Assembly (NCBI RefSeq): GCF_020520425.1 | Contig: NC_079487.1 | Span: 60,798,719-60,862,718 of the forward strand | DNA length: 64,000 bases | Source of the DNA: Spinacia oleracea | Lineage: Eukaryota; Streptophyta; Magnoliopsida; Caryophyllales; Amaranthaceae | Direction: 5' to 3' | Part shown: one piece after another, positions 11,401 to 64,000 of the stretch | Layout: every line of letters begins with the position of its first letter | Position numbering within the stretch: the first letter of the stretch is position 1 | Program-made: the position numbers and the translations under genes | Notes under the pieces: generated by a model | What the model was told of the DNA's origin: nothing | Database searches by the model: none | The model's input: the letters and a program-made list of their open reading frames with translations, nothing else

Positions 11401-11464
11401 AAGAAATCGAAGATTTTCAGTAAGTAACCTCATCTTCAATGTCTTCCAATTCAATATGTACCAA

Positions 11465-11499
11465 TTTTTTTTTTTTTTTGGGGGGGGGGGGGGGGGGGG
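11465..11499 (+). repeat. Homopolymer tract T15-G20
   Basis: Fifteen T are followed by twenty G. On the minus strand this is a C-run followed by an A-run. Such a tract is prone to slippage and to sequencing or assembly error, so its exact length should not be trusted. It sits between the DUF4283 part of the LINE remnant and the triplicated segment. Confidence 0.9.
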
Positions 11500-11506
11500 A
11501 CATTCA

Positions 11507-12533
11507 TTGCATCAAGATTATCATTTTTGTTAGCAATAGAGCGAGGTGTTTGTTCAACAGGTTCTTCAATTTTGTTCAAATCAAAACCCACCCCCTTCCC
11601 GCCAGAATTCGATTGAAATTGGGTTCAAATATCCTTACCATTAATTACTCCGTTAATCCAAGCATTGAACATGATACGAACATTTGATTTTTGTTGCAAA
11701 TCATTCAAAGCAGTTATAGGGGTCAAGATTTGTTCTCCATCAAATGTTCAATGTCTGGATGTTCCTCAGAGTGTTTTGAAATGACCTCATCATCAAGCAG
11801 TTCTACCTGAGGTTGTTCATTTGATTGAGCGCGAGTAAGTTTAGTCATGATCAAGATTATCATTATTATTAGCAATATAGCGAGGTGGTTGTTCAACAGG
11901 TTCTTCAATTTCATTCAAATCAAAACCCACCCCCATCCCGCCAGAATTCGGTTGAAAATGGGTTCAAATGTCCTTACCATTAATTACTCCGTTAATCCAA
12001 GCATTGAACATGATACGAACATTTGATTGTTGTTGCAAATCATTCAAAGCAATTCTAGGGGTCAAGATTTGTTCCTCCATCAATTGTTCAATGTCTGGAT
12101 GTTCCTCAGAGTGTTTTGAAATGACCTCATCATCAAGAAGTTCCACATGAGGTTGTTCATTTGATTGAGCGTGAGTAGGTTTAGTCATGATCAAGATTAT
12201 CATTATTATTAGCAATATAGCGAGGTGGTTGTTCAACAGGTTCTTCAATTTCATTCAAATCAAAACCCACCCCCTTCCCGCCAGAATTCGATTGAAAATG
12301 GGTTCAAATGTCCTTACCATTAATTACTCCGTTAATCCAAGCATTGAACATGGTACGAACATTTGATTGCTGTTGCAAATCATTCAAAGCAGTTCTAGGG
12401 GTCAAGATTTGTTCCTCAATCAATTGTTCAATGTCTGGATGTTCCTCAGAGTGTTTCGAAATGACCTCATCATCAAGCAGTTCTACCTGAGGTTGTTCAT
12501 TTGATTGAGCACGAGTGTTAGGTTTAGTCATTC
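11507..12533 (-). repeat. Three tandem copies of a 340-bp segment (LINE ORF1 N terminus)
   Basis: The unit recurs with a period of 340-342 bp (about 11,507-11,848, 11,849-12,188 and 12,189-12,533). On the minus strand each copy opens with MTK and continues AQSNEQPxVELLDDEV, SKHSEEHPDIE and NVRxMFNAWINGVINGK before a stop. The acidic, low-complexity character and the position before DUF4283 fit the N-terminal part of the adjacent LINE ORF1. The outer copies differ at few positions, so the duplication is fairly recent. A short separate host gene is an alternative, but no family is recognised. Confidence 0.7.
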
Positions 12534-20204: not shown

Positions 20205-20859
20205 TATAGTGAGTTAAAGTGATCGGTTTTCATTTCAAACAAGCTGCATTCTATTTTTTTTTCTCCCTGATGCAGGTTCAGATAATGGCGAGTCTGGTTC
20301 AACCAGCAAGTGTGGTACTTATTTTTTTTTGATGTAGCATTAATGGCACACTCTTTTTGGACAAAAAGTAGGAGTAAAACTGAGAAAAAAGAAATTCAGT
20401 AAAATTGTTGGTTATGAGAATATCGCGAATACATTACTGTATGCAACGACGGTAGAAGTATTGATAAGGTTCTGCCAAGGATCTTCAAATGAATTTAGTG
20501 AAGTGATTGAATCTGATAAAAGGTTTTATGCTGATACTACATTGATAGGGTTTTGATGTTAGAGGTGATCATTTGCGGACTTGAACCGGTAACGGACCAG
20601 GCGTAGGCTTTTTTTTTTTTGCCCAACGAGCTTAAAATGAAAAAACCGAGCCCTTCTCCGTGGGGCTTGACTTCTTGTCCATACCCGTCTATTATACAGG
20701 GTTGGGGTTGCCTGCGGGCTAACGGGCCTAAATTTTTTTTTTTTCTTTTTTTTACTAAATTTAATTAATTAATTTTCTAGTATTTATGGTTTAAAATATT
20801 ATTTTGCTTTTAGAAATTGAGATCTGAACTTAGAAAATCCTAGAATTAGCATCTAACTA
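20205..20859 (+). other. 3' flank of the NDUFAF7 gene, no further gene seen
   Basis: The first 150-200 bp are probably 3' UTR, although no single polyadenylation signal stands out. From about 20,570 to 20,740 there is a moderately GC-rich stretch interrupted by T-runs (ACGGACCAGGCGTAGGC, GCGGGCTAACGGGCC) that looks like eroded transposon sequence. I could not assign a family. Confidence 0.5.
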
Positions 20860-21961
20860 AAACTAAGAAATATAACTGAAATTTCTAAAATTATAACTAA
20901 AACTAAGAAAATCATAACTAAAACTTATAAAATCTTAACTGAAACTCGAAAATACATAACTAAAAACTCAAAAATCATAACTAAAAGTCTGAAAATCGTA
21001 ACTAAAGCTCATAAAATATTAACTAAAACTCAAAAATTCTTAACAAAAACTAAAAAGTCTTAACTAATATTCAGAAAATATTAATTAAATTTAAAAAAAC
21101 CATAACTAATCGAAATTATTTTTAACTAAAACAGATTTATTCTCAACTAAAACAAAATTATTCTTAATTAAAACGAATTCATTTTAAACTAAAACTCACA
21201 AAATCTTAATTGAAATCATAACCTAAAACTCATAAAATCTTAACTAAAAGTTCTTAAACTCATAAAATTTTAACTAAAACTTCTAAAATCATAATCAAAA
21301 CTCGAAAATATTAACTAAAACTTCTGAAATCTTAACTAATACTAAAAAACACGTAACTAAATTTTCTAAAATCATAACTAAAACTCAAAAATTCTTAACT
21401 AGAACTTTTGAAATCTTAACTAATACTCAAAAACGTGTAACTAATAAAACTCTTGAAATCATAACTAAAACCCGAAAATTCTTAACTAAAAATTCTAAAA
21501 TCATAACTAAAACTTAGAAAAACTTAACTTAAAATTCTAAAATCGTAACTAAAACTTCTTAAATTTTAACTAATACTCAAACATATAACTTAATCTTCTG
21601 AAACCATACCTAAAACTCATAAAATCTTAACTAAAACTTATGAAATCACAAGAAAACTCAAAAATCTTAACTAAAACTTCTAAAATCATAACTAAAACTA
21701 TAAAATCTTAACTAAACTTTCAAATTCATAAATGAACTTAGAAAATCATAACTTAAAATTTTGAAATCATAACTAAAACTCAATAATCTTAACTAATACT
21801 CACAAAATCATAACTGCATCTTAGAAATTTAATCTTAACTAAAATTATTAAATGTAATCATAACAAAAACTCAGAAGATCATTACTTTAGAAATCATAAC
21901 TCAGAAAATGAAACTCGGAAACACATAACTAAACTCAAAAAATCTTTACTAAAACGAAATA

Positions 21962-22829
21962 CTCCATCCGTCCCGGAATACTTGCACCGCTTTCCTTATA
22001 AAGTCGTACCGGATTCTATAAATGGTAAACTTTTATAAATAAGGTTGTCAGAATCGGGATCCTACCTTGGATCGATGAAGGGGGGTAGGATCGGATCGGT
22101 AGAATCGGATCGTAGGATCGTAAGATCCTACTAAATAGTAAAAGTAATGGTTATATTATTAAATTGAAATGTACAATCATGTATTCAAGTAATCTTAATA
22201 CTTAAATATCATTTTTTGTTTACGTAAGATTAATACTTGTGTAGATTCAAGAGCAATTAATAAGATATGCGCAAGGTTGTTGAAATTATATGAATTTTTG
22301 TACGTTTAAGTGAATAAGATGCTTTTTTATCACTAGTTTATTGATAGAAAAATATTATATTTCTAATGATATGTGATTACGAACTATTTAGTAATAAAAA
22401 AATTGTTATCTTGAAATACCGTATGTTGGATTGGATCGTTGGATCGGATCGTAGAATCGTAGGATCGTATTAAGATCCCACCACTCAAAATTTTTATCGA
22501 GGTAGAATCGTAAGATCCTACACACATTAAGATCCTACCTAAGATCCGGATCGGTGGCGTGTTTTTGGATCGTAGAATCGTAGGATCGTAAGATCCGAAT
22601 CGGGAGTTTAACAACATGATTATATCAACTACCCCCTTCACATGTCATTTTGTGGTCTCATGCACCCTCCCCCCTACCCCCTTACCCCCTTTAAAAAGTT
22701 GACACATATCCCTATCTATATTAAAAAATACCCCACTATCAACTACCATCTAATTAAATAATAAGTCAATTACATTGTATTAAACTTTGTGCCCGTCAAA
22801 CCGGTTTAAGTATTCCGGGACGGAGGGAG
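21962..22829. mobile_element. Stowaway-like MITE (868 bp) with TA duplication
   Basis: The left end CTCCATCCGTCCCGGAATAC and the right end GTATTCCGGGACGGAGGGAG are inverted repeats. TA sits directly outside both ends (21,960-21,961 and 22,830-22,831). CTCC(C/A)TCCGT and a TA target are hallmarks of Tc1/mariner-derived Stowaway MITEs. It inserted into the 20-bp repeat array. Its unusual length is explained by another element nested inside. Confidence 0.85.
22044..22615. mobile_element. Nested TIR element rich in GGATCGTAGGATCGTAAGATCC-type repeats
   Basis: The left end GTTGTCAGAATCGGGATCC and the right end GGATC...GAATCGGGAGTTTAACAAC pair imperfectly as inverted repeats. The subterminal zones carry many copies of GATCGTAGGATCG and GTAAGATCCTAC. 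The middle is A+T-rich without a coding region. It lies wholly inside the Stowaway-like MITE. I could not define a target duplication, so the superfamily is open. Confidence 0.55.
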
Positions 22830-23620
22830 TAATTTTTAACTAAAACGAATTTATTATTAACTAAAATGAATTTATTTTTAACTAAATCAAAATTATTCGA
22901 AAACTAAAACGAATTCATTATGACTAAAATTTCTCAAATATAACTAAAACTCACAAAATCTTAACTGGAACTCAAAAACACATAATTAAAAGTCATAAAT
23001 CTTAACTAAAACTAAGAAAATATTAATAAAACCTAACTAAAACTCTTAAAATCATAACTAAAACTTCTAAAATCATAACTAAACCTCATACATTCTTAAC
23101 TAAAACACATTCAGTCTTAACTAAAATAAATTTATTCATAACTAAAGAAATATTATTCTCAACTAAAACAAATATAACCTTAACTAAAACGAAATCTTTC
23201 CATCTAAAACGAAATTATTCTTAACTAAACATAATTATTTTGACTAAAACATAATTATTCTTTACTAAAAAAATAATTATTCCACACTAAACAAAAAGTT
23301 ACTTAAATGCAAAAGAAATTGTAACAAAAGGATAAAATTTAATAACTAAATATAACAAAAGTATAACTAAAACAAATTATTCTTAACTGGAATGAGTTGT
23401 TCATAACTAAGCGAATTGTTCTTAACTAAAGGAAAATGGATCATAACTAAAACGGAATGGATCCTAACGTTAACAAAATAACCAAAACATTTACATAGTC
23501 ATCAACTATAGAGGACTCCATTTTATTTCATAACTAAATATACCAAAAGTATAACTAAAACAGAATAATTCTGAACTAAAACCAATTTAATCATCGCTAA
23601 AATGAATAAAACAAAATTGT

Positions 23621-25189: not shown

Positions 25190-26179
25190 TGTTGGGATTT
25201 ACAGTTAATCTGATTAACAAAGCGTAAACAATCCCTATGTCAGGATCCATGTAAAAGTATAGATTAAGAATTACTTGTGTTTGATGCATGTACTCCCCTT
25301 TAAACTACGAACACGAACGAGAAATCCACTTGTAGTTCCTCTACAATCGTCCATCTACACGTGCAAATTTGCCTTGAATCCGATAGCTTAGATCTTCAAT
25401 CAAGGTTGTAGGTTTTTGTGAAAAACTCTGTTTGGAGCCGCAGAGAAAATCAGGGTTCTCTAGGTGTCTAGGGTAGTAGTGTGGGAAAACATAGGTACGC
25501 ATTAGGTTATTAAAATAACATAGGAAGGAAATTAGACCAAACGACCAAAAGGCACAAGGCCTTGTGATCGCCCAGCCTTGCGAGCAAGCCCACACACGCA
25601 CATCACCAAGGAGCTGGGCCATAGGCCGCGCTTGTGTGGCTGTTGTTGCTGCTACCCCGCGCGCAAACACAGCCGCAAGGCCATGGGCCTGCGTGCTGTT
25701 GTGTTGCCGCTGCTATGCCTCGCGCCCATGGGCCTTGAGTGCTACGTGCACTCGGCTCATGCCTCCTCGTATGCCTTCGATGACCTTTCGGCCAATGCTT
25801 TATCGTATAGTACTTGACGATCCAATGTTGTACGATACGATTATTCATTTCGCCTAGCTTACAAATATAGGCAATACGATATACAATTCCGATTCAACAT
25901 CTTATCGTATATTTATGTTTTCCGAACTAATTTCCCGAAAAGCCATTAAATGAATTTCTGATTCATTTAATCCAGTGATCTGTTTTATGCCATTGGTGTG
26001 ACCTTGTAGGTTCAGTCAAGAGTAACTTGTGAGGGTAATAAGGATTAGAACTCACTAATCGGAAACATTGCTCCACCTAGCTTTTCCGATCACTTGATCT
26101 TACTGAATTAATTATTTGTAATTAATCTGAACCTTGGTATTACACTAATGCACCTTGGGAGAAGGACACATTTCCTTCA
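25190..26179 (-). repeat. Copia 3' LTR (990 bp)
   Basis: Bounded by TGTTGGGATTTACAG and CACATTTCCTTCA. The reversed polypurine tract ATCTCCCACTTGTCC follows immediately. The sequence matches 37,150-38,041 and 45,457-45,559 joined. A GC-rich block lies around 25,560-25,760. Confidence 0.9.
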
Positions 26180-27780: not shown

Positions 27781-28646
27781 TTACATGGGTATATGGCCTC
27801 TCTTGGCTTCCATCATATTCAATAGAGCTAGCACTTTATCAATGTAAGTACTTTGGCTTAGTCCAATCATCCTTTTAGATCTATCCTTATATATCTTGAT
27901 ACCCAAAATGTATTGTGCCTCTCCTAAGTCCTTCATTGCGAACCACTTTCCATGCCAAGTCTTTACAGACTCCAACATAGAAATGTCGTTTCCAGTAAGT
28001 AGTATGTCATCAACATACAATACTAGGAATGCAATTTTACTCCCACTAACTTTCTTGTATACACAAGATTCGTCAAGATTCTTGATGAAGCTAAATGCAC
28101 TGACTGCTTCATCAAATCGTATGTTCCAACTCCTGGATGCTTGCTTCAATCCATAAATGGATTTCTTAAGCTTGCATACCTTTCCTGCATTCTTTGGATC
28201 AACAAATCCCTCCGGTTTTGTCATGAACACAATCTCTTCAAGAATACCATTCAAGAAGGTGGTTTTGACATCCATTTTCCATATTTCATAGTCATGAAAT
28301 GTAGCAATTGCATGTAAATCTGAACAGACTTAAGCATCTGAACTAGAGAAAAGGTTTCATCGTAGTCAATTCCGTGAACTTGTATGTAACCTTTTGCTAC
28401 CAATCTAGCTTTATATACATATACATTTCCATCTTTGTCTTTCTTCAATTTGAAGACCCATTTGCTTTTGATAGGTGTAAACCCATCCGGAAAATCAACC
28501 AAATCCCAAATTTTATTTTCAGACATGGAGTGTATTTCATATTTCATGGCCTCTAACCATTTTACGGAGTTTAGGCTCTTCATAGCTTGCTTGTAGGACA
28601 TAGGTGCATCCTTATCCAATATGAGAACTTCTAAATTTTCAGTCAA
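27781..28646 (-). pseudogene. Copia reverse transcriptase, one frameshift
   Basis: Two overlapping open stretches cover most of the domain. The upstream one (28,646-28,251) reads WLEAMKYEIHSMSENKIWDLV, then KWVFKLKKDKDG, ARLVAKGYIQ and GIDYDETFS. The downstream one (28,275-27,781) reads MDVKTTFLNGILEE, CKLKKSIYGLKQASRSWN, the catalytic VLYVDDILLTGND and DLGEAQYILGIKI. The frame changes between the two, near 28,255-28,275. YVDD is intact. This is the best preserved part of the element. Confidence 0.85.
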
Positions 28647-34620: not shown

Positions 34621-37136
34621 CATTCCTAATCTTTTAATAACTTTGAAATAAAAGCAAACATGCGATCATTAAAGCTATAAAATATTTCATTCATGCGTAC
34701 AAAACATGGTCCATAATTGAATGCAGCGAATCCAAGCCCCTAAAGTTCTCTAAGTATTAAGCATATTTTGGCTTGTCTTAATCTTTTTAAGATTTTAGGT
34801 AAGCAAAAACCAATTGCTAGTAATATCCAAACTACTCTTGGTTAATAAATTAATGTCATGATTTATTCCATTGCCACAACATATGCCAATATTGTTTGAG
34901 TTATAACCACAATCAACGTGTTCATTTCGGATACATTACCATCTAGGAATACTAAAATAGCACCTTACTTTGGCGGAAACCTACTATCTTAGGTTCGAAA
35001 ATCTTTGTAAGTGCTTGATTTGGAATGCAATTATTTAACTCAATATTCTTTAGACCTAGTTGTTTCTATGTTGGTTTGATTATTTAGTGAACTAATTCCT
35101 TAATCAAAACATACAAACAACATACACATGCATAATATAGATATACTAATATACGAATATATAAAAGCATATGTAAATTTGGTGAACTAGTATGGCCCCA
35201 AAATGCTAGCTTCACCTTGTTAGCTTGGCACCGTCTTGAAAACCATTCAAAATGCTAATTTATTATTTTAAATAAGCTACCTAGAAGTACTTGAATTAAT
35301 AATCTAATTATTACAACAAAAATTCATGGTACGCAGACCATATTTAAAAACTTTACATTCGAAGATAAAACGGTACGGATGCCATATTTAAGTATCCTAG
35401 TTGGGGCATATTAGTCATCTGCATAACCTGCAATACATAATAATATAATATGCATTCACCCTTCGTTTCCTAAAAAAAATATCCCAAGTAAGCTTACACA
35501 TAATTACATGATTAATTAATTAAAACCATGTTCATGTAAAGGCGCCCTAAAATATTAATCAAGTCCAAATCATTATTCCTTAATTATATTTTAATCAAAT
35601 ATTTATTTAATTAAAAATGAATTTCCTACAAAAAAATAATTAAAATAATTAATTTCAAGAACTTCATTGAAAGGCTCCCACTTAAACCAATACCACATGA
35701 ACTTTTAATTTTAAATATTTAAAATCATGGCCCGGCCAAAGTTAAGTAAAATTAAAATATCGAAAAATTCAACTGTTAGTCCCTACGTGCAAAATTAAGC
35801 CGAAAGCCCAAAAGTTGGGCCTTGAATTAAATCCGAAGCAAAAACACACAAATCAATGCAACGTGGGCTTGGCTTGTGCTCAGCCCACCGATGACCAGTG
35901 CATTGTTCCCAACGCAGGCCGCAAGGCTCATGCCTCGCACAACACAACAACGCACATGCAGGCTATAACGCACTCGTGCACGAGCAGTTGCTCGTTGCTG
36001 CTCCTCGCTTCGCCCAGCAGTGCGCGATGGCTTGCTTCGCTTGGCTTGCCGCGTCGCTGCTTGGCACACAACGCCAGGCCCCTAGCTCGAAGGCTTCGCA
36101 CCGCGTGAAGCCTGCAAGCAGGGCGTTCCCGCGTGCTGCACCTAGCTAGCTGCCCCTTGTCTCGATGCATACGCGCGCCACAACCATGGCACGAGGCCAT
36201 GTTGTGTGCACTGCACACACACGAACATCATCCATCGCCCTCGTGCGAGTGGATTGCTCGTCCAATTGAACATCGAAAACCAATTCAATGTTACGAAACA
36301 AATTTTACACGATTTAATTTTTTCATAATTTCAACAATTCAAATTCTTTTTAATTACGAAATATAATTAAAGTGGGTGATTTATTAAAATTTCAAACAAT
36401 CCAATTTATGAAATTTATAAATCTAGGCTAACGATTATTTAAATTTAACGAAAGATTATTATCAACAAAAATTTTAATACTTTAGATAAACCAATCCAAA
36501 CATTTATATCGTTGTAAACATTTAAATTTCAGATTTTTATCAAATTTGGTTTAGGTGATCGATTAAAATTAACGAATCTAATCAAAATTTTGGTCCTTGA
36601 ATTTAAAATGAGCTATTTAAATATGAAAACATATTCCCCTAGCCTCCTTAACAAATTTTCAGATCTAACCAATTAATAAAATTAATTTTCGATCATAAAA
36701 ATCATTAATTTAGGGTTTTCGGAATTAGGGTTTAAAATTTAAATTTATGATTGAAATAAATTTTAAATCTTCATAATAATTATTAACATTCAGTAGGACT
36801 AGTTTCAATTAATTATAAGTCGAGTAGCAATTATAATTAATTTTTAAAGCCGTAATTATTCACGTTTTAATTGATTAAACACGGAAAACACCCAAAAACT
36901 CATACTTCGGAGCTGAAGTTCGTAAATCTGGGTTCATGTGTTCAACTTAGAACGTCGATTACGATCAATTTGGACTCAGAAAAAATCGAAAATTTGACAC
37001 TTTTCGAAAACAACAGTTTTTTCACGATTCATCCAATAATCCGAAAAAAAAATTGACAAGTACAAAAAAATTGACAGAAAATTCGACCAATATAAAAACA
37101 TGAATTTAATGTTAAAATATACTTTAGATACATGAA
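34621..37136 (-). other. Long Copia leader (about 2.5 kb)
   Basis: No open frame with recognisable product lies between gag and the primer-binding site. The stretch is A+T-rich apart from a GC-rich block at about 35,780-36,240 with many GCTTGC/GCACGC motifs. A similar arrangement is seen in the leader at 9130-10,850, including GGTACGCAGACCATATTTAAA near 35,330 and 9824. The GC block gives spurious open frames on both strands. Confidence 0.65.
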
Positions 37137-37148
37137 GTTCTGATACCA
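37137..37148 (-). other. Primer-binding site (initiator tRNA-Met type)
   Basis: The minus strand reads TGGTATCAGAAC one base inside the 5' LTR. Plant Copia elements use TGGTATCAGAGC, complementary to the 3' end of initiator tRNA-Met. One position differs. Confidence 0.85.
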
Positions 37149-38059
37149 CTGTTGGGATTTACAGTTAATCTGATTAACAAAGCGGAAACAATCCCTATGT
37201 AAGGATCCATGAAGATTAAGCATTACTTACGTTTGATGCATGTACTCCCCTTTAAAATACTAACACGGACGAAAACTCCACTTGTAGTTTCTCTACAATC
37301 GTCCACTGACACGTGCAGATCCGCCTTGAATCCGATAGATTAGATCATCAATCAAGGTTGTAGGTTTTTGGAAAAAACACAGTTTGGAGGCACCTAGAGA
37401 ATTACGGTTCTCTAGGTGTCTAAGGTTGAGTTTGTAATCAATTGTGTGGGTAAACATAGGTATTAGGTTATTAAAATAACCTATGAAGCATATTAGACCA
37501 ACCGACCAAAAGGCACAAGGCCTTGTTACTGGCCAGGCTTGCGAGCAAGCCCACACGCGGACAAAACCAAGGCGTTGGGCCATGGAATGCGCTTGTGTGG
37601 CTGCTGCTGCTGCTACCCCGCGCACACATACCGTCGTAAGTTCATGGGCATGCATGCTGCTACATTTCCACTACTATGCCTCGCGCCCATGGGCCTTGAG
37701 TGATACGTGCCCTCGGCTCGTGGGCTCCTCGTATGCGTCCGATGACCTTTCGGCCAATACTTTATCGTATAGTACTTGACGGTCCAATGTCGTGCGATAC
37801 AATTATTTGTTTCGCCCAGCTTACAAATATACGCAATATGATATACGATTCTGATCCAACGTCTTATCGTATATTTATGGTTTCTGAACTAATTTCCCCA
37901 AAAGCCATTAAATGAATTTCCGATTCATTTAATCCGACGATCTGTTTTATACCATTGGTGTGACCTTGTAGGTTCAGTCAAGAGTAAGTTGTGAGCGTAA
38001 TAAGGATTAGAACTCACTAATCGGAAACATTGCTCCAGCTACACTACTACAAAACGCGT

Positions 38060-38370
38060 TGTTTTTCGACGCTTTTTTTCCACATTTTCGACGACGAAGG
38101 GCGTCGAGAAATATTTTCTCGACGCTCAGTAGCAGCGTCGAGAATTTGGGCGTAGAGAACTTCTCGACGCTCCTTTTCGTCGAGAATCTCGACGGGTTTT
38201 GTTGTCTAAAATTAGATGTTGACGCATCCCTGCGTCGAGATTGTCGACGCTTTTTGTCGTAGTTAATGTATTTTCTCTACGCTATCCTGCGTCCTAAATA
38301 TTTTTGCGAGTTAAGTATAACATTTTGCGGGAAATAGTTTATGACGATTAAAAGCGTCGAGATTTTTGTT
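38060..38370. repeat. CACTA left subterminal repeats (GCGTCGAGA type)
   Basis: Short motifs TTCTCGACGC, GCGTCGAGAA and CGTCGAGAT occur at least eight times in both orientations. Matching motifs sit at the right end (45,316-45,435). In this superfamily such repeats bind the element's own regulatory protein. Confidence 0.75.
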
Positions 38371-41300
38371 TTCAATTTTTTTTTTTTTTTGCACGAAGCA
38401 AATACAGTCTTAAACTTCAAATCATACAAAACTATATAGCTAGCAAAATTGAAATGACGAGATGTCAATAACTTAAAGATATATATACTTATATTAAATT
38501 ATATAATAATACGTCATAAACATATCATCAAAGTTTACATATGATCCAAACTATTTACCTAGTATACCAAAACACAAGCGCATAACGTCTTCAATGTATA
38601 TTACAACTCCAATTGACCTATTATTCTAAAATATCATCTTCAAAAGAAAGGCAATTCAAAGCCTATAAATTCAAGAAGATGGGCTTCAATGTTGAAGGAG
38701 CTTTGATTCCTTTCTTCAACCACCATAATCTCCAAACGCATCACGGACCTTCAAAAAAAAATTAATAATGGTCAGGAATAGTTTCTCTCACGGTGTAAAA
38801 ATAAATTAGAAATATATGTCCACTGTAAAGAATGAACAATGACCAGCAACAAATATATGAACTTCATATAATTCATTACTCTGCATAAGTGAGAGGATTG
38901 TGTTTATACTTTGTTCTGTACTATAAAGTTCAGTTGAGTTGTGTTGCTCACGTTAGTGACTCTTAATCGTACCTAACTTATTTGTTTTTTGCTTGCTTTT
39001 GTTTATAAAGACGACCTGTTAGAGATGACTCGTTAAAATAAGAGCAAGTTAATGTTCCTGCTCTGTATAAAAAAAAACAAAGGGCTTAGTCTAAACTGAA
39101 AGAGTTTCAGTTTTAGCTGAGTTTTGACCGACCCCATAATCATCAATCATAACAATCAATCGAGTAGTATTACTAAGCATAAGTTGGACAACAAACATTT
39201 CCAAGAATCAACAATAATCAATATATACCAGGTTATATAGCAAGAATTTCCTTTTGTTATGATGTCGCAGAAAAGGGCTTGGTGCTGGTCTCTGCCAGTT
39301 TCTTCTTTTGAGTTTTTAGAATTAGCATAAGGCAGGCAGAAGTTCAGTTCAGTTCAGTTTAGTAAAGTTCGTTAGATCTTAACTAATTATAGTTAGTCCA
39401 TAGATCACAAACTTCACATAATCAGACATAGAAAGCAGTAGAAAATTCCAAGTGAAAGGGTTTAAATAATACCGGAGGGTTTGCCTAAAAGCTTGAACTA
39501 TAAACACACTAAAAGCTTGAAGTTAAAAGACTAATGATATGTTAAGTGGTTATCGGCAGAAAATCGCCCGGAGGTTGGAATAGAATGTTTGTGCCTAATC
39601 ACAAATTCAATCTGTGCTTGCAGTCAACGTACACTACAAAACCGAGATAGATTGGAAGCTATTGGTGTTGCAGACACTGATCTGTGTGTCCTATTTGTGT
39701 TTATAAGAATGAAAATCATAAACAACTACTCTTTGAGTGAATTTATAGCAAAACTGCTCTAGATAGAGTGTTAGAACAAGTGCATACCTACTGTTCTAGT
39801 TAAAATTGTTGCAGAAATACCATCTTAGTAGCTTTGCCTTTTGATAGTAAATTGAGTGAACTTCTGATGTTGATGGAGTGATCCTTATTTAAGAAAGCTT
39901 GGTATTTTCCGAACACAAGCCTACAAGTCTTCTCTCTGACACAAGCAGTTTTCTCTTCACTAGATTCTTCTGTTCGTTTGTTCCTTCAATTTGGTGCCCA
40001 ATGGCGATAATCAATTAGTAAATAACCGGTATAATTAACATCTCAAATCAAAGGCTATTCTAGGATTTTAGAGTGAATGCACCAGATAAAGATACAATGC
40101 AGATTTTCAGTTTTGATTTCTTTATACTAATCAACTCCTAGCAGTAATTATTAGTTACTTAAAACAAATAAAACCTAATTTATATGAGCAAGAAAATAAT
40201 TATCCTAAGAAAAAATACAGGTAGACTACAGAATAACCCAAGGTAAAGAACTACAAACAAGAAGGAACACTAGCTAGATAGTTCATGCACAAGCACTAAT
40301 GGGAAATATTAAGAGTGTTCACAGCCTCTGCCACTTAAAGTTAATCAACATCCCCAGACCAATGTAGGTAGTGTTTTCGTGTCTTCAGGTAGCTTGAACC
40401 TGACCCTGCAGCCCAAACCTGAACCTGACGTTAAAATCTAAATTTGAACTTGATCCTGCAGCCCATATCTGACCCATCAGCCCTGCAACCTCTGTCTTCA
40501 AACCCATCAACCCCTAACCCTCCAGTATTCTGTTCAGTTCTGTTTTGTTCTATTTCATAAAGTTCAGTCAAGTTCTATTTCGTAAAGTTCAGTTTTGTGT
40601 TACATACATTAATGACTAATACAGTTCAGTCAGTTGTTGCTTGTTAAAGACCCCCAAAAAACTAGAATTTCCACAATAATACTTTTTAAGGCACACCTGG
40701 AGATATTATAAGTCATATTACTAAGAAACACCAAGAAATTCAGTAAGTTTCTTTAGTATTCTAAGGTAATGCTAAACAAACCTTGCTAAATTAATCATAA
40801 CTCTAGGCAAAAATAACATAAAATCACAGCAACGATTTCCAATCAAAACAAATTTACCCAAAAAATCCCAAATTTACCTCAAAACTTATAATAATCCAAC
40901 ATATAACACGAAATTAAACCCATAATAATTGAAAATAAGCAAGTCAGAAACTCAACTGGTAAAAATAATCCCTTATTCAGCCTTAAAATTTAGATTCAAA
41001 CCCACCTTAACCCTATAGTTTCCATCAAATTATAACTTCTTTCGGTTATTTTTTTCGAAATTTCAATCAGAATCATTATCATCCATAAAAATAAGATATA
41101 TCAATTATCAACAGATTCACCATAACCAAACAGAAAACATTAAAAATCGATGGAAAAGAACATAGAACATACCTGGTGAAAGTGAGAAAGCTTGTAATCT
41201 TCCGCAATTCAGAGAGTACTGTGAGAATTTCGATTTCAATGGAGGGTTGAAGGTACCATGAGAATTTCGAAGGTACCAGACTAAGATCGAGCAACTTATC

Positions 41301-42150
41301 GACGAGAAGTGTTCGTTTTTCTTTTTCTTTTTTAGGGTTTTGGTGTCTGCGGTTTCCTGTTTAGACATTATAGATAAAGGAGCCATATGTTGCTGTACAA
41401 CCTGAATTTAATATCAGGGTAGAAAATTAAATGTAAACATCAGGGTCCTAGATTGTTTTGACTAGTTCTTTTTCCTCTACATCAGGCTTACTCTTTTGAC
41501 TGTTGAACAAGATAATTCATGAACACTACTCAAATGACATGTTCTATTCTGTTATGTTTCGTAAAGTTCAGTTTTATAAAGTTAAACAGAAACTGAAATG
41601 AAAGAATTCGGGATCATACCTTCATCCCGAGAGGGGATGTTGTAGGTGTGTATCACTCTACAACCTTGCCCTCTTTGTCCACCAAAAACTTCTCGTAATT
41701 CCAGTAGACCAAGTCACCAAAAACCCCCCATCACTGAACTTGAGGAACTGTAAACTATGTCTGTATTTGGACCATTCATGTCCAGTTGTTGCAGTCAGTA
41801 GCAGTAGCGGTCATGGTGTCAGTAACTAGGCAAGTATGGTTCTCTAACTATTTTAAGTTGGTGATTTCACTAACGAACCTTATAAAAAATGGGGTATTCA
41901 GCTTTGAATCTTGTACACACAAAATTCTTAATCTCGGGAATTGATCCAGGTACTTTGCCTCCAAATTGATTGAGCAAGAATGCTAGAATCTTAAATCCTG
42001 CACGTGGAAAACGGTTATCATCTAGATTACTCTGCTAAAAGTACACATGACATCATATAGCACTAATAGATTCATGAGGCTACAAAAAAGAATACTCAGA
42101 TGATTCTTGGCATTGCCAAAAGGTTTGGGAAAATAAGAACTGAACACAAT
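38371..42150. other. CACTA interior, left part, no gene recognised
   Basis: A+T-rich DNA without a supportable protein. At 41,386-41,170 on the minus strand a short open stretch begins MAPLSIMSKQETADTKTLK and ends before CCAGGTATG, a plausible splice donor. It could be the first exon of a captured host gene, but I do not recognise it. Confidence 0.35.
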
Positions 42151-42155
42151 AATAA

Positions 42156-42533
42156 CTAAAAAGCCCAACTAACCCTGAGTTTTATACTTCTCATACAGTT
42201 GTGAGAGTTCCGAATAGTTTTATGATTTCTTGATTCAACTTCTTTCACTTCTCTGATTTCCCTTTCTAGTTGAGGTGTGATATATCTGCCAGATTTCATA
42301 GTGTACATAGTCCAATTAATATCATTTTGACAGATACCAGGGTTCTGTTTGATTATCTTGCCTGAGGTCATTACAATTGCATTGATACCTCTAGTGAGAT
42401 TTCCGTCTAAGGCAGGTTTAGGGTCAGATATATGGAGCCATAGCGTTATATTATTAAATAGAGTAAAACTATGATATTCCTTGTTAATAGCTTTAATCAT
42501 GTACATAAAAGTACCATCAGGAATTCCATAATG
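42156..42533 (-). pseudogene. Unrecognised open stretch inside CACTA
   Basis: The minus strand is open for about 125 codons to a stop at 42,156, reading HYGIPDGTFMYMIKAINKEY, SDPKPALDGNLTRGINAIV and MTSGKIIKQNPGICQND among others. The composition is protein-like and unlike the surrounding A+T-rich sequence. No motif is familiar. It could be another captured exon or a chance open frame. There is no transposase signature. Confidence 0.3.
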
Positions 42534-43087
42534 CCCCTAATGAAACCAGAGCATCCTTCGATTTTAAGTACTAGTAGTAAGTGCTAATAGAGTGACAGTT
42601 ACCTCGGTAATTACTCATAAGATACAGTGGTAAATATGAATTAATGCAGATACAGTGATACACAAATAAATAAGTCAGCCTCGTGTATCAAGGAGTAAGC
42701 AAACTGACCCAGATCCTCGTTTGAAATTTGATGAGAAGGCATACGTAAAGAATTGCAAATTTTTATGACGCTGCTATACCCTTCCTACAGTATAGCTTGA
42801 AGCGAAGTTTAAATTGTGCTTACAGAGTTATGGTTGTATTAACTGCAACAACAGATGTGTGCAAATCTAGGGTCAGGGTGGTACACTAGGCCAGCATTGT
42901 CAAGAAAGTCACCTTGTTCATGTAGGAAACTAAACTACAGAAGATGAAAATACAATTATCCTTAAGCTCAAGTACAATTCATGACAGGAGATTTATTTCA
43001 CGCAGGAAAAAATTCAAGGAAGGAGTAGACAATGCATAAGTTGAAAATTACTCTGAATGAAAAAAAAACTAAAGAGTAAGGCATTAC

Positions 43088-43802
43088 CTGCAGCTTCCCG
43101 TTGCTTCAGCCATTCTTGTCCAACAGCATCATTTTCTGCCGGGTAAGTACACAAGAAAAACCGCTTTACCAGGCTCTATATTTCTTGAGCATTTCACAGA
43201 AAATCAGCTACTACGATACCTGAAGATCAACGATTCTTTTCAGTTGATCCTCTTCACCTCCCTCAACTAGTGGCAGGGCATTGACCAAGGCATCAAACTA
43301 TAAAAGAGCAAGTTAGATAAGAAATGAGTGTTGACACAAGTCCATTGAAAAGCAGAAGAAAAAATAGTTCTGGCAGTGCAACAGGGTAGTTATTGGGGTT
43401 GCACAAATCTCAAACTTACAACTACACAAGAATAAAAAGAAAAGTTCGTCATATCTGAAGCTGATCTGAAAAACTACGAGTAAAAAACAGCTCCTTCGAT
43501 AAATTCAATTAGAATACCATACTCAAGAAAAACACATGAACATCAAAATAATGAGCTTAAAATGGGCACAAATCCATTCATTACAGTTCAAATTTCATCA
43601 ACCAAAAGGCAATATTTCAGGTTAAGACGATCAATTCTAAACTTGCACATACATTTCACTAATAAACAAAGAAAAATTAATTGAAAAATACACAAAAAAG
43701 GGTTGAATAAAAAACAAAAACCCAGAAAAATTACATGCTTGGCAGCCTTAGCAAGAGAAGCACTAGCTGTTTTGGGTTCATCGGCAAAATTGGCAGTAAT
43801 CG
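43088..43802 (-). pseudogene. MED21: Captured MED21 (Mediator subunit 21) gene fragment
   Basis: Three exon-like pieces on the minus strand match the middle of plant MED21, a coiled-coil subunit of the Mediator middle module. Piece 1 (43,802-43,735) reads DEPKTASASLAKAAKH with a GT donor. Piece 2 (43,297-43,220, 26 codons, AG before and GT after) reads FDALVNALPLVEGGEEDQL then KRIVDLQ. Piece 3 (about 43,139-43,088) reads ENDAVGQEWLKQREAA with a GT donor. The conserved core is FDALVxALPLxEGGE. Pieces 1 and 2 splice in frame, but the acceptor of piece 3 does not give the MED21 frame. First and last exons are not found. The introns are kept, so the capture was from genomic DNA. Confidence 0.8.
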
Positions 43803-45315
43803 CTGCATTGTAGAATATGCAAGATGCAACATTAATTAGTGAACAATTTCCACTGAGAGACCCACAATTTCATACATAATCACAAATATCTATCCCAATG
43901 TTCCTACGATATAGAAGAGGTATACTCAACTGTAAGTTTTGCTTTAAATGGCCTAGATTCATAGTATAGTTAAGCTAAACCACAACAGCACTTTGCCACG
44001 TCAAAATACCCCCCCACCCCCACACACACACATAAATAATAAATAACAAATAAAAGAACAAGAAAGACTACTTTAATTTATCTAACTCGATCAAGAAATA
44101 TAAAGTTAATCTAAATTCAGCAGATGCTCAAACAATCATTATTATCTAGATTTGTGAAATAGAAACAAGTCTAGTACCAAACTCGTGAAAATGGGTATTC
44201 GCATTCCCCTCTTAGTCTGCCCAAGTAACCTTTATGCTTATAATGATTAAACCAAACATACATAGTGTGATAACCCATCATGTAACTTTGAAATTTGAAC
44301 ATACTTTGCTATGATCTTAACAAACTCTTATGTTAATAAAAGCTCCCAAAGTGACGCAGGGTCTACTGTTCAAATTCATCAAAAGCAAAGCCTGATATAA
44401 CTTATAAGCAATTATATTATATGCAATGAAAACCCAGAATTTTGAACACCATTCAATTGCAGCTATACGATCAACTTAGAACATGGAAACCTTAGAAATT
44501 TAATCTAATCCATATAATTTGTAGAATCATACATCAGATTATTTTTATTTCCTTTAAATAAAATTAAACGAGCTCAATAAGTTAGAGGGGGAACTAGCAA
44601 TGTAAGCAAACCCTTTTGTCAAAGAAAAACATTTAATACGTTAAGCAATTTTCAACTAAAAATAACTGCTATAATACAAGTATTCGATCATTCTAATTTC
44701 TAACCGAGTCGATATCATGAATCAGATTTGGATATAGCTTTCCTCATCCTATCTGCAGCCTAATTTCATATATTGAAATCCGAAATTTGAACAAACTGTA
44801 TGCAAATCAATAATCGAAATCTTCCTATCCAAATTTCTTGAGCCGCCAATTAAGCCCAGTGAAAACCTAAACCCCAAATTACACAAATATAGACCTAGAC
44901 TATTGAAGAATGAAAAAAAAATAGAGATTGATAAATTCAGATGGATAAATTACATTACCTTGAGCAAGACTTGCCTAAAATCAGATGGAAGAAGATGCAA
45001 ATTCCATTGATATGGTCGGATAATACCTCCAAGTTAAGAGAAAAGTAAAGTTAAAAAAATACGAGATTTGAGAGAGAAACAATTACAACCGGAAGGGAAA
45101 ACAAATGAGAAGGTGTAAGAGTCTGTAACTCCATTAAGATTTGAGAGTAGATCTGGGATAAAGGGAAGTTTCCTGCAATACTGTACAGTGATTCATTGAA
45201 GGAGGCGAGTTAGGTTTGAGAATGAAAAGATTAGTGCGAGCGGCGGATTTTGTTTTTCCTTGATGTCGCGGGCAGTACAGAAGAGACCACGTGCAGATCA
45301 TGTGAGTTTTTACTT
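43803..45315. other. CACTA interior, right part
   Basis: Mostly A+T-rich, intron-like DNA upstream of the captured MED21 pieces. Near 45,050-44,960 the minus strand has an exon-like stretch ending GCTCAAG before GTAATG, a possible leader exon. The MED21 start (MDIISQL-type sequence) is not seen. The right subterminal repeats begin at about 45,316. Confidence 0.4.
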
Positions 45316-45559
45316 ATTTCTCGACGGTTTTACAAGTCGAGGGATGCTTTAGACGCGGAAAACCGTCGACAAACCACGGAACCTAAAATTTCACTCCAGC
45401 GGTTACCCGCGGCGTCGAGGCAATATCGTCGAGATTCCACGCCTTTTGTAGTAGTGCTAGCTGTTCCGATCACTTGATCTTACTAAATTAATTATTCGTA
45501 ATTATTTTGAACCTTGGTATTAGACTAATGCACCTTGGGTGAATGACACATTTCCCTCA

Positions 45560-48500
45560 ATATCATGTAACACTTTATGTAATTGATTTCTATACAAATG
45601 AATTTCACCTCTGTGATCTGAAGTATAACATCGTCGGGACAAACAAACTTGCCAAACAAGTGGAGCGAGATCAAGAGAATCAATGGAGCAGAAATTGGAT
45701 TCTGAAATAACAAATTTAACCTAAATAATTAGCAAAAATATTACTAACACAACCTTCAGATTATATAAACTACTTGAAATTCAATAAAGACCAAAATCGA
45801 AACCCTAAACTAAAAAACCATACCTTAAAATCAACAAAATTTTCATAATCAAAGAGGAAAATAAGTACGTAGCGAAATTAACCTGGATTTCATGTTTGAT
45901 TAAGTTTTTCCAGAATTACATTATTACGTATAGAACAACAAATATTTGACAGAAAATGGAAAAAACGAAGATTGAGAAAGAAACAAGAGCAAAGAACAAA
46001 TAGAAAAGAGCGACATAATTGTTGCAAAGAACAAAAACAAGAACAATCACACGTGCTAGCCTATATTAAATTGACTAATTTGCATATCCACGATAAAATT
46101 AGTGAAATCATGTCCATTTAAAAATTTTACATGTTGAAATACTTGGACAGTTGGTAAACGAGGCTTACAAAGTCAAGTGTTATTGTTACTTTTTTTTTAA
46201 GTACTAGAAAACTTATCACCAGTCGTTAACAGTAGGATCTGGTAGATCATTTCTCAAAAGAACTGTAAATGGACCGAAACGCGGTATGAAGAAGCAATAA
46301 ATTGTACTCCTTATATATTATGTAACAAGTCCAAAACTTAGGCAGTATATACCACTTCAAATTTGAGATCTTAGTCTCCTAATCTATTTGATCCTACATG
46401 GAAGGTTATCAACAATTTATCAAAATTGCTGAAAGTCAAATCTTGAAAACCTTCCAACATTCTTCTTAGAATTAACAGGGAGCAAAATATAAATAGTTAG
46501 TACTACAATAGGAACAAAAAGATTCAAGTCAAGAGGGTAAATTAGAATATAAGCGATATAACTAAGTCCAACGAGCTCAATAAGCTCAGGATCAGGCATT
46601 CTCATTGCCTCTGGAATCAAGTTTATAAACAAGGTTCAAGTTTACATTCTTGGTCACACCTTTAGAACGAGATCTACTTCTCTTTAAATACCAACACCAT
46701 TTTTGTCCACCATTGCGATGAGAAAGAAAATTCAGTGTCAACCAATGTACGAAGTATAATTAAGAAGTGGAAAACACAATTTACAAGGAATGAGATTTGA
46801 CAGATAAGATAAGTCATAAAACTCATCTAATTTACTGTCAATAGTACAATATTAGTCGTCTAGATCCGGATTATAAAAAAGGATAGCCAATACATGAAGG
46901 TAAATATATTTAGGGAAAAAAGGTTTATATTCCCAAGTATATAAGAATAGTGAAGTCAATGAAATTCAAACAAGGTATATGAATCTCATCACAAAAATAG
47001 CGAGGTCAATGAAATTCAAAGAAGATATATGAATCTCATCACAAATATAGCAAGGAAAGAAATGGAGAAACTATCAAAAGATATTCCCAGTTCACTTAAA
47101 CCGGAAGACCAAGAGAACCAACCAAATCAAATATCCTCAATTACTCCAACCGCAAAAAGAATCACTACGACCTCCTAAATAATTTAGTACTATAATGAAT
47201 AATAAGTGAAACGCATTAAAGTAGCACCATTCATCATCATAACATTATCCAATCAAATGGTCACACGCCTAATATAATTGTTTCCTTTTAAAGGCAAGGA
47301 AACCCACCATTTACAAGATCATAGAAATCCCTGCAACCTACTACGAATAATATGTCCAACCTGCTTGCCCAAATTGAGATGGAAAATTTGCCACTCATTG
47401 CTCCTATTAGCTTGAGTATTGGTCAATAATAAAAGATAGGCTGAAGAAACAATATGCGGCATCCTACGTAACACAAATCGAATTACACGTCCACCCAATG
47501 CAAGGAATCAAACACTCGTAGCAACAACATAAAAAACATACGGAGTACGCAACATAAATAACTCATTTTTTAGAAAGTTGCGAATAAAACAAATAACAAA
47601 ATGATGTTGCAACAATAAGATAATTAGGAAGGACTTACCTGGAACATGCGAAAAATTGATGAACATATAATGAAGAATTGATGCGTCGTGGGATACCACT
47701 TTCCTTAAACACGATTCCGCACTACCTCCTGGTGCAGTAGAACAAAAGCGGTCACCCTCCAGGATTAACACAGCTCCGAATTTGTGTGCACTTACAAACC
47801 CAAATGGAGTCAGAATATATGCCCAAAACCAGAGCAATTTGAGAGAGGGAAGAATGTGTTTGATTTTTTCTGAAACTCTGTACGTATATTGTGTTTGTGT
47901 ATTTCAGTCCCTTATGGATGAAAAGAAAATTGATTAATATAATCATGAACTCTTTGAACTCCAACGGTAAAAAACGGTTAAAGAAATTAATTGAGAATAA
48001 TGCATATTAAGGCCCTAATTAAGCCAATAGAATAATGCACATTTAAGGCCTTAATTAATCTAATGGTTACATAATCAATAGATTCTTGTAACAATGATTT
48101 AGCCAAATAGGTACCAAAATGAATAGGTAGACCCACAACCCACCCGCGTATACCAAAACCCGAGCCCAAACCGGCCAACCTACATGCGCATGTGAGTATG
48201 TCCACCAAGACTCCCTACTGCTTTCTTAAACAAGAAGTATACTCATACCCAACTTGTAAATAAATGAGTTGTTTGATATTCTACCAATGAGGGACATTTC
48301 TCACTTTACACTTTTCACTCTTTTCTTTTGCATTTCCCAACAAGAACTTCTAACATAACCTACTATCATAATTATTCTCTAGCAAGTAATTATGAATTAC
48401 TAATTTAACATAATATTCTCCACAATATTTCCTATTTATATTTAATAATTGTCGGAAATGTCTTAGGACATAATTCCTTCAAGTTCATGTTCGAACATGA

Positions 48501-59810: not shown

Positions 59811-61192
59811 TGTTAGGTTATGATACATATGACAAAACATAAATCATGCGGAAAACCTTAATGCCAGGAAACATATTATTTACACATAATCATATAGCAT
59901 AAATTAGATGCATACACTTTGTAGCGTGCCTCCCTAGCTGCGCCCGAACCGAACAAGAACAAGTCTTTAGGACTCCAAGTGTCGTCCCTCCGTAGAAAGT
60001 CCACAGCATATCCGGATCCGCCTTAAGCTTGACCAACTAGAATCGCCCTTTAGGTTCCTAGGAATTTTCGGCTAAAATGGTTGCAAGTGTTTGGCTGATT
60101 TTTGCTTCAAAATCTTACCTTTGAATACTTCAATGTTGTGTATAAATTTGTGACCCTAGGCACCTATTTAGAGTTATGGAAAAGGACTTATAATCCTATT
60201 AGAATACAAATTTAGTTTAATTAGAATCCTGCTAGGACTCTATTAAATAAACTTTATCTATTAGGATTAGGATTTAATCATATGACGAATCCCGATAGCT
60301 TTAGGATTCGTGTAACACGCACACGAGCAGCGCACAAGCACCGCACGCCCATGCGCAAGCCTTGCGGCCCACGCACATCCCACAGCGCTGAGGCCTACTT
60401 GCTCGCAGCCTGCATGATCCGTGCGCGCGCCCAAGCCTTGGTTAGGCCTGGTCGAGGCTTGGCGTGTTATTGGATGCGTTGGCTTGCTGGGCGATGGCCT
60501 GGCTTCGTGCTGGGCCTTCGTCTAGCAAGCCTTGTCCGATGCTAATTCGTACGATACGCTTTCCGATTAAATTTCCAATTCCGGAATTCATTTCCGATAC
60601 GAACAATATTTAATATTTCTGATTCCGGAATTAATTTCCGTTTCAAACAAATATTTAATATTTCCGTTTCCGGAATTATTTTCCGATTTTGATAACATTT
60701 CCGATTCTGACAATATTTCCGTTTCCGAGAATATTTCCGATTCCGGTAATATTTCCATTTCCGATAATATTTTCCGATACGTACCATGTTTCCGTTTCCG
60801 GCAACATCTACGACTTGGATAATATTTATATTTCCGATACGATCCATATTTCCGTTTCCGGCAATATATCGTTTCGGAGTATTTATTTCTTGCTTTTGAC
60901 GATCTCAGCTCCCACTGAAACCAAGATCCGTCGATTCCGAATATCCATAGATGGAGTATTTAATGCCATTAAATACTTGATCCGTTTACGTACTATTTGT
61001 GTGACCCTACGGGTTCAGTCAAGAGTAAGCTGTGGATTAATTTCATTAATTCCACTTGAACTGAAGCGGCCTCTAGCTAGGCATTCAGCTCACTTGATCT
61101 CACTGAATTATTAACTTGTTAATTAATACTGAACCGCATTTATTAGACTTAACATTAAATGCATACTTGGACCAAGGGCATTATTTCCTTCA
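59811..61192 (-). repeat. Copia 3' LTR, complete (1382 bp)
   Basis: It runs from TGTTAGGTTATGATAC to TTATTTCCTTCA and is followed by the reversed polypurine tract GTCTCCCACTTGTCC. A GC-rich R/U5-side block lies at 60,300-60,530. The segment 60,545-60,870 carries the same 12-17-bp TTCCGATTCCGG(A/T)AATATT variants as the other LTRs. Confidence 0.9.
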
Positions 61193-63359
61193 GTCTCCCA
61201 CTTGTCCTTAGGGACAAGTGTGCATTTCCAAATTCCTTTGTCGCTCGATGCTTGCTCTTGAACATAAGGTAAGAGTTGTCATCTTTATTATGTCCAGAGG
61301 TGTTTCTCGGTTTCCGAGTTCAACTGATCAAATAAACAGATAATCATAGCCTATGATTCATCTAAGCACGGCCATGCATTTTACAGTTTCTAGCTCTCCG
61401 AGTGGCCTTGTACAACTTTCAGCATCTCATCCCGATTTATGGGAGGACAATCCCATCTTGCGATCTTGAGATTAGACTTCGTTTGATAGGTGATTACCTG
61501 AGCGTTGCCTTTATAGTCTCGTTTTACGGTGCGACGGTTGGTCAACGTCAAAGTAAGTAGTTCTCAAACAAGTAATCTCAAATCACTCAGGTATTGAGGA
61601 TTAGTGTCTAATAATTTTGATGAAATTTACTTATGACAGATTTTCATCTCTTACAGTAAAGTTTCATTGGTCTGTCCGATACTAGTCTTCCCAAAGTAAG
61701 TATCTATGCAAATGATTACGACATTGCCATGTCCACATTGTTCAAGAAACAGAACTACTAGTCATCTTGCATTCTAGTCGTCTAACGTTTTCTATGCGTC
61801 CATCTTTATAGAAAACTCCGACCAGGGACCATTTTCAATCTTTTGACATTCAAGTTCACTTGATAGACATTTCTTAGTCACAAGACTGGTCCTGACAGTC
61901 TATCTTGAATATATCGTCAAATTTAAGGGACTCATCATTTAATACTAAACCAAGATTAAATGGAATATGAAAATACATTTCATATATGATAAATGTTCAA
62001 CCCCTACGTTTTACAACCATGGGTCTCTAACCCATCTTTAAAACAGTTCATGGATTTCAAACCTATGCTTGATTTCCAGTGCCACAATGTGAGTGTTGCT
62101 TCTCACTTGTTGCATAGGTTTAGTTGTCATGCTTTACCAATCTTAATAACCCTTCCATCGAATGTTTTTCGAGATAGGGTGATAAGATCTTTTGAGTTTG
62201 TTTATTATGTGATCTAGTCTTTCTTACTTAAATAGTGGTTCTACGCATTTTGCAATGAAGAACTATTAAGTCAACAAACATGTGATCTACCCAAGTTCAA
62301 TGAAGAACTCTTTAACATAAACAACCCTGTTTTATTGCTTCTTAGGCGATAAGTACTTTTACTTCAACTGTATAGGTTGCTAGTGATGCTTTGGTTGGAT
62401 TTACTTATCCAAGCAGTTCACAGATATGTGGAAGACTTTCCAGCTGTATCTTAGAACATAGAAATTAATATTTAATTTCCCACGCAACAACTCATGGTCT
62501 CCAATCCATGTTGCCATTTCAAAACACGATGCTCTTTAGCTCGTCCTTGTCAATGGTTAACTCCAAAGGAATCTTGCTTGATCCTTTGCCAGTGTTTATG
62601 CGTATCTTTATTTCCTTGAATCAAGAACTACTCTTATGTACCTTTTCAAGTACCATAAGTTTTTCTTGATCTCAATCTAGTTGATCTTCACTTAGATCAA
62701 TAGAGTTTGGTATGTGTTCGTCATGCCTAAAGTCATACGATACGTTTTTGGCGATCCTCATATTATATCATACATGATAAATTCTTTTCCAGAATAATTC
62801 CCAATTGAATTCTATTCATGTAACTTTAGCTCATCTAGTTTCAGTAGATACTAAAACCAGCTAAATTCTTTGACATATAATATAGGTTAAGAATCTCATT
62901 TTGACTCTTGGATGTTTAACTTAATAAATGCTTATACATAGTTCAAACATCCTTTACTTAGATTTATTCATATGGGTCGAATGTCTCCAATGGAGTCTTT
63001 CGTGTTTGATTTAGTAAATGACACTACTTAATTCAAAACAATATCATAAGATCTTTGTAAATAGATTTTAATACCCAGTATGTACTAAGTTTCGCCTTGG
63101 TCCATCATCGATGAATAATTTCAAACCTAAGTTATTAGCATTTGAACGTTATTTCACAATAGAGAGATATGTGTGTGATACACATAGGACCAATTAAGTT
63201 TTACATACTCCCACTAAACTTCTTATATATCTATAAGAATCATGTACATTTTATGAAACTAAAATACTTATTAGCTTCACTAAAATACAGTTTTAATTCC
63301 CAATTTGCTTGCTTAAATCTGTACTTAGATTTCATAAGCTAGCTTTCCTTTTCAAGTAT

Positions 63360-63700
63360 TTATTTGGATCCACAAATCCTATGACATATCATGTACATAG
63401 TTTCTTCCAACATTTTATTGAGGAATTCGTTTTTGTCATCCAATTGCCATATGTACCAATATGCAATCATTGCTTGAATTATAGACTTAAGCATTACGAT
63501 TATGCATGAGGTTTCAACGCAATCCACGCCGTGAATTTGCTTGTAACCTTTAGCAACTAATCTAGCTTTGTGTGTGAACACGATTCCATGTTTGATGGTT
63601 TTTATCCTTAAAACCAATTTGCAACCAATAGGTGTTAACCCATTCTTGCAAATCAACAAAATTTCAAATTTGTCATCAAAACATTGGTTATGTTTTATGG
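63360..63700 (-). pseudogene. Degenerate Copia reverse transcriptase fragment
   Basis: The minus strand reads NGLTPIGCKLVLRIKTIKH, FTHKARLVAKGYKQIHGVD, VETSCIIVMLKSIIQAMIA and YWYIWQLDDKNEFLNKMLEE. These follow the Copia RT series KWVFKxK, ARLVAKGYxQ, GxDYxETFSPVV and MDVKTAFLNG. Key residues such as ETFSPV are already altered here, and altered in the same way at 6454-6648. The catalytic YVDD part is not intact. Confidence 0.75.
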
Positions 63701-64000
63701 CCTTTAACCATCTAAAACATTTGAGTCTATATATGGCCTTTAACCATTTTAGGGAATCTAGGTTTCGTCATAGCTTTCTTACAAGTCACAAACTTATTAA
63801 TTTACATGATAATAGTTTGACTGCAAGTTGTAGGTTTCTTCACTATCTAATAGAAGAATCGCATAGCTTCAGTGACCTGAACTCCATGATTCTTCACTAT
63901 CTAATAGAAGAATCTCATAGTTTCAGTGACTTGAACTCTATGCCTACATGGGTATAGAACATCGATCAAACAATAGAATATCAATAGCCACTTGAAAGTC

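Follow-up and report, generated by a model that had tools for sequence, protein, structure and literature searches.

Pack-CACTA elements are CACTA transposons that carry host coding DNA in place of a transposase. According to PMC8903248, maize Pack-TYPE elements often hold DNA from more than one locus, and Pack-CACTA elements do so most of all. Comparable CACTA-type carriers of host gene fragments have been described in soybean (Tgm-Express1; PMC1947982) and in Chenopodium (the Jozin CACTA-like elements; PMC8978399). Here, we describe an element of 7,415 bp in spinach that carries fragments of the Mediator subunit gene MED21 and of a glutathione peroxidase (GPX) gene. It lies at positions 38042 to 45456 of the window, the stretch of 64,000 nucleotides of Spinacia oleracea contig NC_079487.1 that we analyzed. 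In our reading, it is very probably a nonautonomous DNA transposon of the Pack-CACTA type with pseudogenic cargo, presumably moved in trans, in which a MED21 block sits on a GPX-bearing backbone.

Results

The window element has CACTA-type inverted ends that begin CACTACTACAAAA and match at 17 of 18 bp (5' terminal inverted repeat, 38042 to 38059, plus strand; 3' terminal inverted repeat, 45439 to 45456, minus strand). The ends are flanked by a CTA target-site duplication (38039 to 38041 and 45457 to 45459). The element splits a long terminal repeat (LTR), and the sister LTR provides the empty site: it is uninterrupted and has a single CTA at 26077 to 26079. Short subterminal repeats in both orientations, as expected of CACTA elements, lie inside each end. 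We counted 11 TCGACG/CGTCGA motifs in the first 320 bp (38066 to 38360), 4 in the last 140 bp (45321 to 45432), and 1 elsewhere in 37001 to 46500, without a shuffled control. A 31-bp terminal pattern occurred 120 times at no more than 3 mismatches in the genome (894,210,420 bases in 242 contigs; genome searches scored a part of their candidates), and its reversed control did not occur.

Five further copies of the element (L009 to L013) were 98.7 to 99.1% identical to the window copy. All six, which we call group A, carry MED21. Both ends were found in five A copies; each of these has a 3-bp target duplication, and all five duplications differ (CTA, ATA, CCT, ATT, and TAT), in keeping with the CACTA pattern of a 3-bp duplication without a fixed sequence. 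PIF/Harbinger elements make target duplications of the TTA/TAA type; none of the five is of this type, and we dropped an assignment to that class.

The interrupted LTR (37150 to 45559, minus strand) belongs to an old LTR retrotransposon whose other LTR lies at 25190 to 26179, the borders of both being set by eye. The two LTRs are 86.5% identical, and their outer flanks (ATTTC and ATATC) agree at 4 of 5 bases. Set against a difference of about 1% among the element copies, this identity suggests that the retrotransposon probably predates the spread of the element. Judging from the five different duplications at five copies, the landing in an LTR looks incidental. The retrotransposon itself is probably on the minus strand. 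Inside it, at about 28,422 to 28,484, is a motif that we take to be from a Copia-like reverse transcriptase; its tblastn row was at chance level.

The MED21 segment (42456 to 43802, minus strand) extends from part of exon 1 to intron 3. On the same strand, it contains the 3' part of exon 1, with the N-terminal part missing (43735 to 43802), exon 2 (43220 to 43297), and a remnant of exon 3 (43088 to 43139). Spliced together, with two residues beyond the last exon, these remnants matched the Pfam family Med21 (PF11221) at an E value of 1.7e-10 (41.8 bits against a cutoff of 37.3). This query additionally hit PDDEXK_6 (E value of 0.0047), below that family's cutoff. The parent, at 5.78 Mb of C6 (L021; C6:5774000-5783900), is the only intact MED21 copy found in the genome; its four exons are separated by GT-AG introns and form an open frame of 168 residues. 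The window segment resembles it across 42496 to 43798, with 88 to 93% identity in the matched pieces of both exons and introns, and the retention of intron sequence indicates that MED21 was captured as DNA. The remaining ~40 bp (42456 to 42496) are common to one other MED21 locus, L014, and not to the parent. Intron 3 of the parent holds ~250 bp absent from the element, bounded by the inverted sequences TAAAGATGG/CCATCTTTA and flanked on either side by GTGTACC (read by eye); presumably this is a small hAT-type insertion that postdates the capture.

The MED21 cargo bears the marks of a pseudogene. The start of exon 1 and all of exon 4 are absent, and the exon 3 acceptor is altered from CCAG in the parent to CCCG in all six copies. 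With these changes, a MED21 protein would not be expected from the element. The element and its MED21 cargo are not chance findings, because an intact MED21 in the same genome matches exons and introns alike and because the terminal pattern stands at 120 occurrences against 0 in its control. The initial annotation had proposed a cleanly bounded CACTA transposon with MED21 exon-intron sequence at 43,088 to 43,802. The bounds are borne out by the paired ends, the flanking CTA, and the empty sister LTR, and the cargo by its three remnants, the Med21 match, and the alignment with L021, introns included; the similarity is real, and MED21 is present in every copy rather than in one. That reading was sound but incomplete, since it missed the GPX fragment, a third fragment, five more copies, and 11 other MED21 loci.

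The GPX fragment (41587 to 42225, minus strand) consists of parts of three exons with intron sequence and includes a stop codon. It matched PDB entry 2p5q (E value of 2.5e-12) and Pfam (E value of 1.8e-5), and it was also found by tblastn with a protein sequence as the query. A donor-like gene at 85.898 Mb of C1 (L036) is 84 to 90% identical to it in the main pieces, introns included. A DNA search of the genome with this fragment gave 54 matches in 34 places, six being the A copies. Measured inward from the 100 listed CACTA ends, 16 of the other 28 places (donor-like gene included) lie no more than 20 kb from an end, 13 of them within 4 kb. The adjoining stretch at 42226 to 42461 accompanies GPX at other loci; by our own count, 15 of its 18 places outside the six copies adjoin a GPX place. 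Its open frame (about 42,230 to 42,460) had no match in Pfam, and nothing in PDB scored better than an E value of 0.83.

Next to MED21 lies a third host fragment (43804 to 44046, minus strand as taken from an adjacent open frame). Of its 55 candidate matches, 40 were scored, and the sole match among these outside the A copies was at 147.019 Mb of C6 (L037; C6:147018977-147019204; 84% identity). The open frame beside it was without a Pfam match, and its PDB matches did not go below an E value of 0.47; the fragment is probably noncoding. At the border between MED21 and this fragment, both donors have TGC (by eye), which is short enough for chance. Beyond this fragment come 44047 to 44698, of which 44089 to 44195 is similar (84%) to core sequence in other CACTA elements (L030 to L032), and a 3' region at 44699 to 45456. 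A search of a plasmid collection gave no match.

The GPX-bearing element L038 suggests how these parts were joined. It matches the GPX part and the 3' part of the window element (95% over 44699 to 45456) at 91.6 to 95.1%. These parts flank the MED21 block, which is itself absent from L038, as is 44047 to 44698; in place of the 2.4 kb in the window that holds MED21 and the third fragment, L038 has ~180 bp of other sequence. Compared by eye, the 28 GPX places outside the A copies do not coincide with any MED21 place, nor do the 11 other MED21 loci coincide with any GPX place. The simplest reading of the L038 structure and of these nonoverlapping places is that a GPX-bearing CACTA backbone would have gained a block of MED21 and the third fragment; the GPX-bearing relatives other than L038 are known from match places alone. 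The CACTA-core-like sequence at 44089 to 44195 and the ~40 bp at the left edge shared with L014 hint that the block may derive from another MED21-bearing element. Such an origin would fit the model of hybrids between neighboring elements, as put forward in PMC13317346.

We then considered whether MED21 was captured once. The genome search with MED21 returned 19 matches, equivalent to 18 loci, of which 17 are cargo copies; the parent was found as two pieces. Besides group A, 11 further loci fall into three other groups having CACTA features: group B, a shorter element at six loci (L015 to L020); group C, at three loci (L023 to L025); and the remaining loci, L014 and L022, grouped by core similarity on one side of L014 and by the likeness of L022 to L014. 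CACTA ends were not recognized in L014 or L022. Three of the four B copies with both ends found have a 3-bp duplication, L017 having none, and neither does L025, the only C copy with both ends found. These two MED21-bearing CACTA elements (L017, 5403 to 8496; L025, 2950 to 9196) are perhaps rearranged or recombined.

A single capture is favored for A, B, L014, and L022, a claim from which group C is left out. A gap of ~750 bp in intron 1, whether lost from these loci or gained by the parent, is common to A, B, and L014; the parental stretch of that length has no other match except a 141-bp repeat. A stretch of intron 3 is common to A and L014 and absent in the parent. In exon 2, A, L014, and L022 read EED and IV, whereas the parent reads EEA and IA, as does the Arabidopsis MED21 protein. 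That the related groups captured MED21 several times independently is a lesser but serious possibility. The MED21 parts and borders differ between groups, the trees are nearly star-like and their inner branches weakly supported (values of 60 for joining L014 to the parent and 66 for joining group C to it), and group C, read in L023, has EEA and IT rather than the exon 2 changes that the others carry. Informative sites are few and conflicting: in a comparison of A, B, L014, and the parent over 348 sites, two joined A with B, one joined A with L014, and none joined A with the parent, while over 339 sites of A, C, L014, and the parent, three joined A with L014, two joined A with the parent, and one joined A with C.

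With cargo copies making up 17 of the 18 MED21-like loci, the cargo might act in trans, as the initial annotation had raised: small or antisense RNA from the copies could lower or silence parental MED21, an essential gene. Between 6 and 44 parental coding 21-mers recur without mismatch in the window copy and in each of the other 16 cargo loci (whole loci searched, without a control), and 43 of 487 parental coding 21-mer positions were matched, likewise without a control; the sequences are thus compatible with such an effect. We nevertheless consider this unlikely, as perfect 21-mers are expected of any recent gene fragment, the parent is intact with GT-AG introns, and Rfam at gathering scores gave no match in 37000 to 46500. 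We hold it still less probable that the CACTA clan repeatedly took up MED21 and that its spread to 17 loci in four groups was favored through protection from silencing or tuning of MED21, whether by RNA or by the likeness itself.

No transposase Pfam domain was present in any of the six frames of the window element, and all four Transposase_21 pieces from the same genome, used without a positive control, gave no tblastn match at an E value of 1e-3 in the window or in L009 to L038. The initial annotation had likewise recognized no transposase. In related elements, the frames searched against Pfam yielded chance-level rows and no transposase (L035, five of six frames; L017, all six; L025 and L028, three of six each; L029, two of six). 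A weak match to cyclin in L025 (E value of 0.012) found no support from PDB and was set aside. Transposase_21 is abundant genome-wide (1375 candidates, 150 scored), which makes a helper in trans possible. The length of 7.4 kb and the number of CACTA transposases in the genome would also suit a degraded autonomous element whose transposase was overlooked; given the six frames without a transposase domain and the four unmatched pieces, we regard this as very improbable. Arrival of MED21 as a processed (mRNA-derived) pseudogene, contradicted by its kept introns, or as an unrelated later insertion into one copy, at odds with its presence in all six, merits virtually no credence.

Several repeats lie elsewhere in the window. 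A long A+T-rich array of ~21-bp units (AACTAAAACT...), with many diverged copies, occupies 20854 to 23617, and a tandem repeat with a ~340-bp unit in at least three copies occupies 11396 to 12516. Direct copies at 3708 to 6851 and 60662 to 63730, 57 kb apart, are 94 to 97% identical in the pieces shown. An inverted pair of 687 nucleotides at 1353 to 2039 and 4306 to 4992 is 97% identical.

Discussion

The window element has host coding DNA between its ends, donors in the same genome (L021 for MED21 and the donor-like L036 for GPX), and several copies with the same cargo, all of which are hallmarks of Pack-CACTA elements. We propose that a CACTA transposase encoded elsewhere would move it by cut-and-paste. 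The element would have acquired its cargo as DNA, perhaps when neighboring elements were excised aberrantly, as suggested by the CACTA-core-like sequence in the block and by the stretch shared with another MED21-bearing locus. The cargo would then travel with the ends as inert pseudogene sequence.

Some observations weigh against this account. L038 also lacks 42323 to 42461, a stretch found near GPX in 15 other places; sequence was therefore lost there, and L038 is not a clean pre-MED21 state. It could have lost MED21 as well. The GPX fragment fell below the Pfam cutoff in one search (24.7 against 27 bits) and above it in another (29.5 bits). Among the copies, L010 is without a recognized 3' end and ~350 bp, and L011 is without 47 bp. 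Finally, no helper with matching ends was found: none of 149 typed transposase places lay within 20 kb inward of the listed ends, a comparison that covered 100 of the 120 ends and, of the 150 transposase places scored among 1375 candidates, all except one on a small contig (C84).

The element is real and well preserved, of the Pack-CACTA type with cargo in layers, and it is a good but ordinary example of a known phenomenon. Because one genome contains the donor-like genes, relatives with GPX only, relatives with MED21 only, and the element that combines the two, this is a handy case for studying how Pack-CACTA elements gain and join cargo. It also carries a warning for annotation, as many pieces of MED21 and GPX here belong to the cargo of transposons. 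Among the matches listed, a literature search on spinach and CACTA gave no title concerning this element, and one on MED21, transposable elements, and gene capture gave none with the word MED21; a search on MED21 and CACTA matched a rice Mediator paper alone.

Of the closest described systems, Pack-CACTA and other Pack-TYPE elements (PMC8903248) share with the spinach element the CACTA ends, the short duplication, the absence of a transposase, coding DNA from multiple loci, and several copies; the host and the genes differ. Tgm-Express1 of soybean (PMC1947982) is likewise of the CACTA type, at 5.7 kb, and is made up of several unrelated fragments of host genes in which exons and introns are retained. 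It lies in the intron of a gene, however, and its fragments are spliced into transcripts, whereas the spinach copy lies in an LTR and is known from DNA alone. The Jozin elements of Chenopodium (PMC8978399), from a close plant group, are also CACTA elements with host gene fragments. Unlike the spinach element, they are described as carrying transposase domains, their quinoa ends read CACTAGTAGAAAAA..., and their fragments come from Neprosin and AP2 genes rather than from MED21 and GPX.

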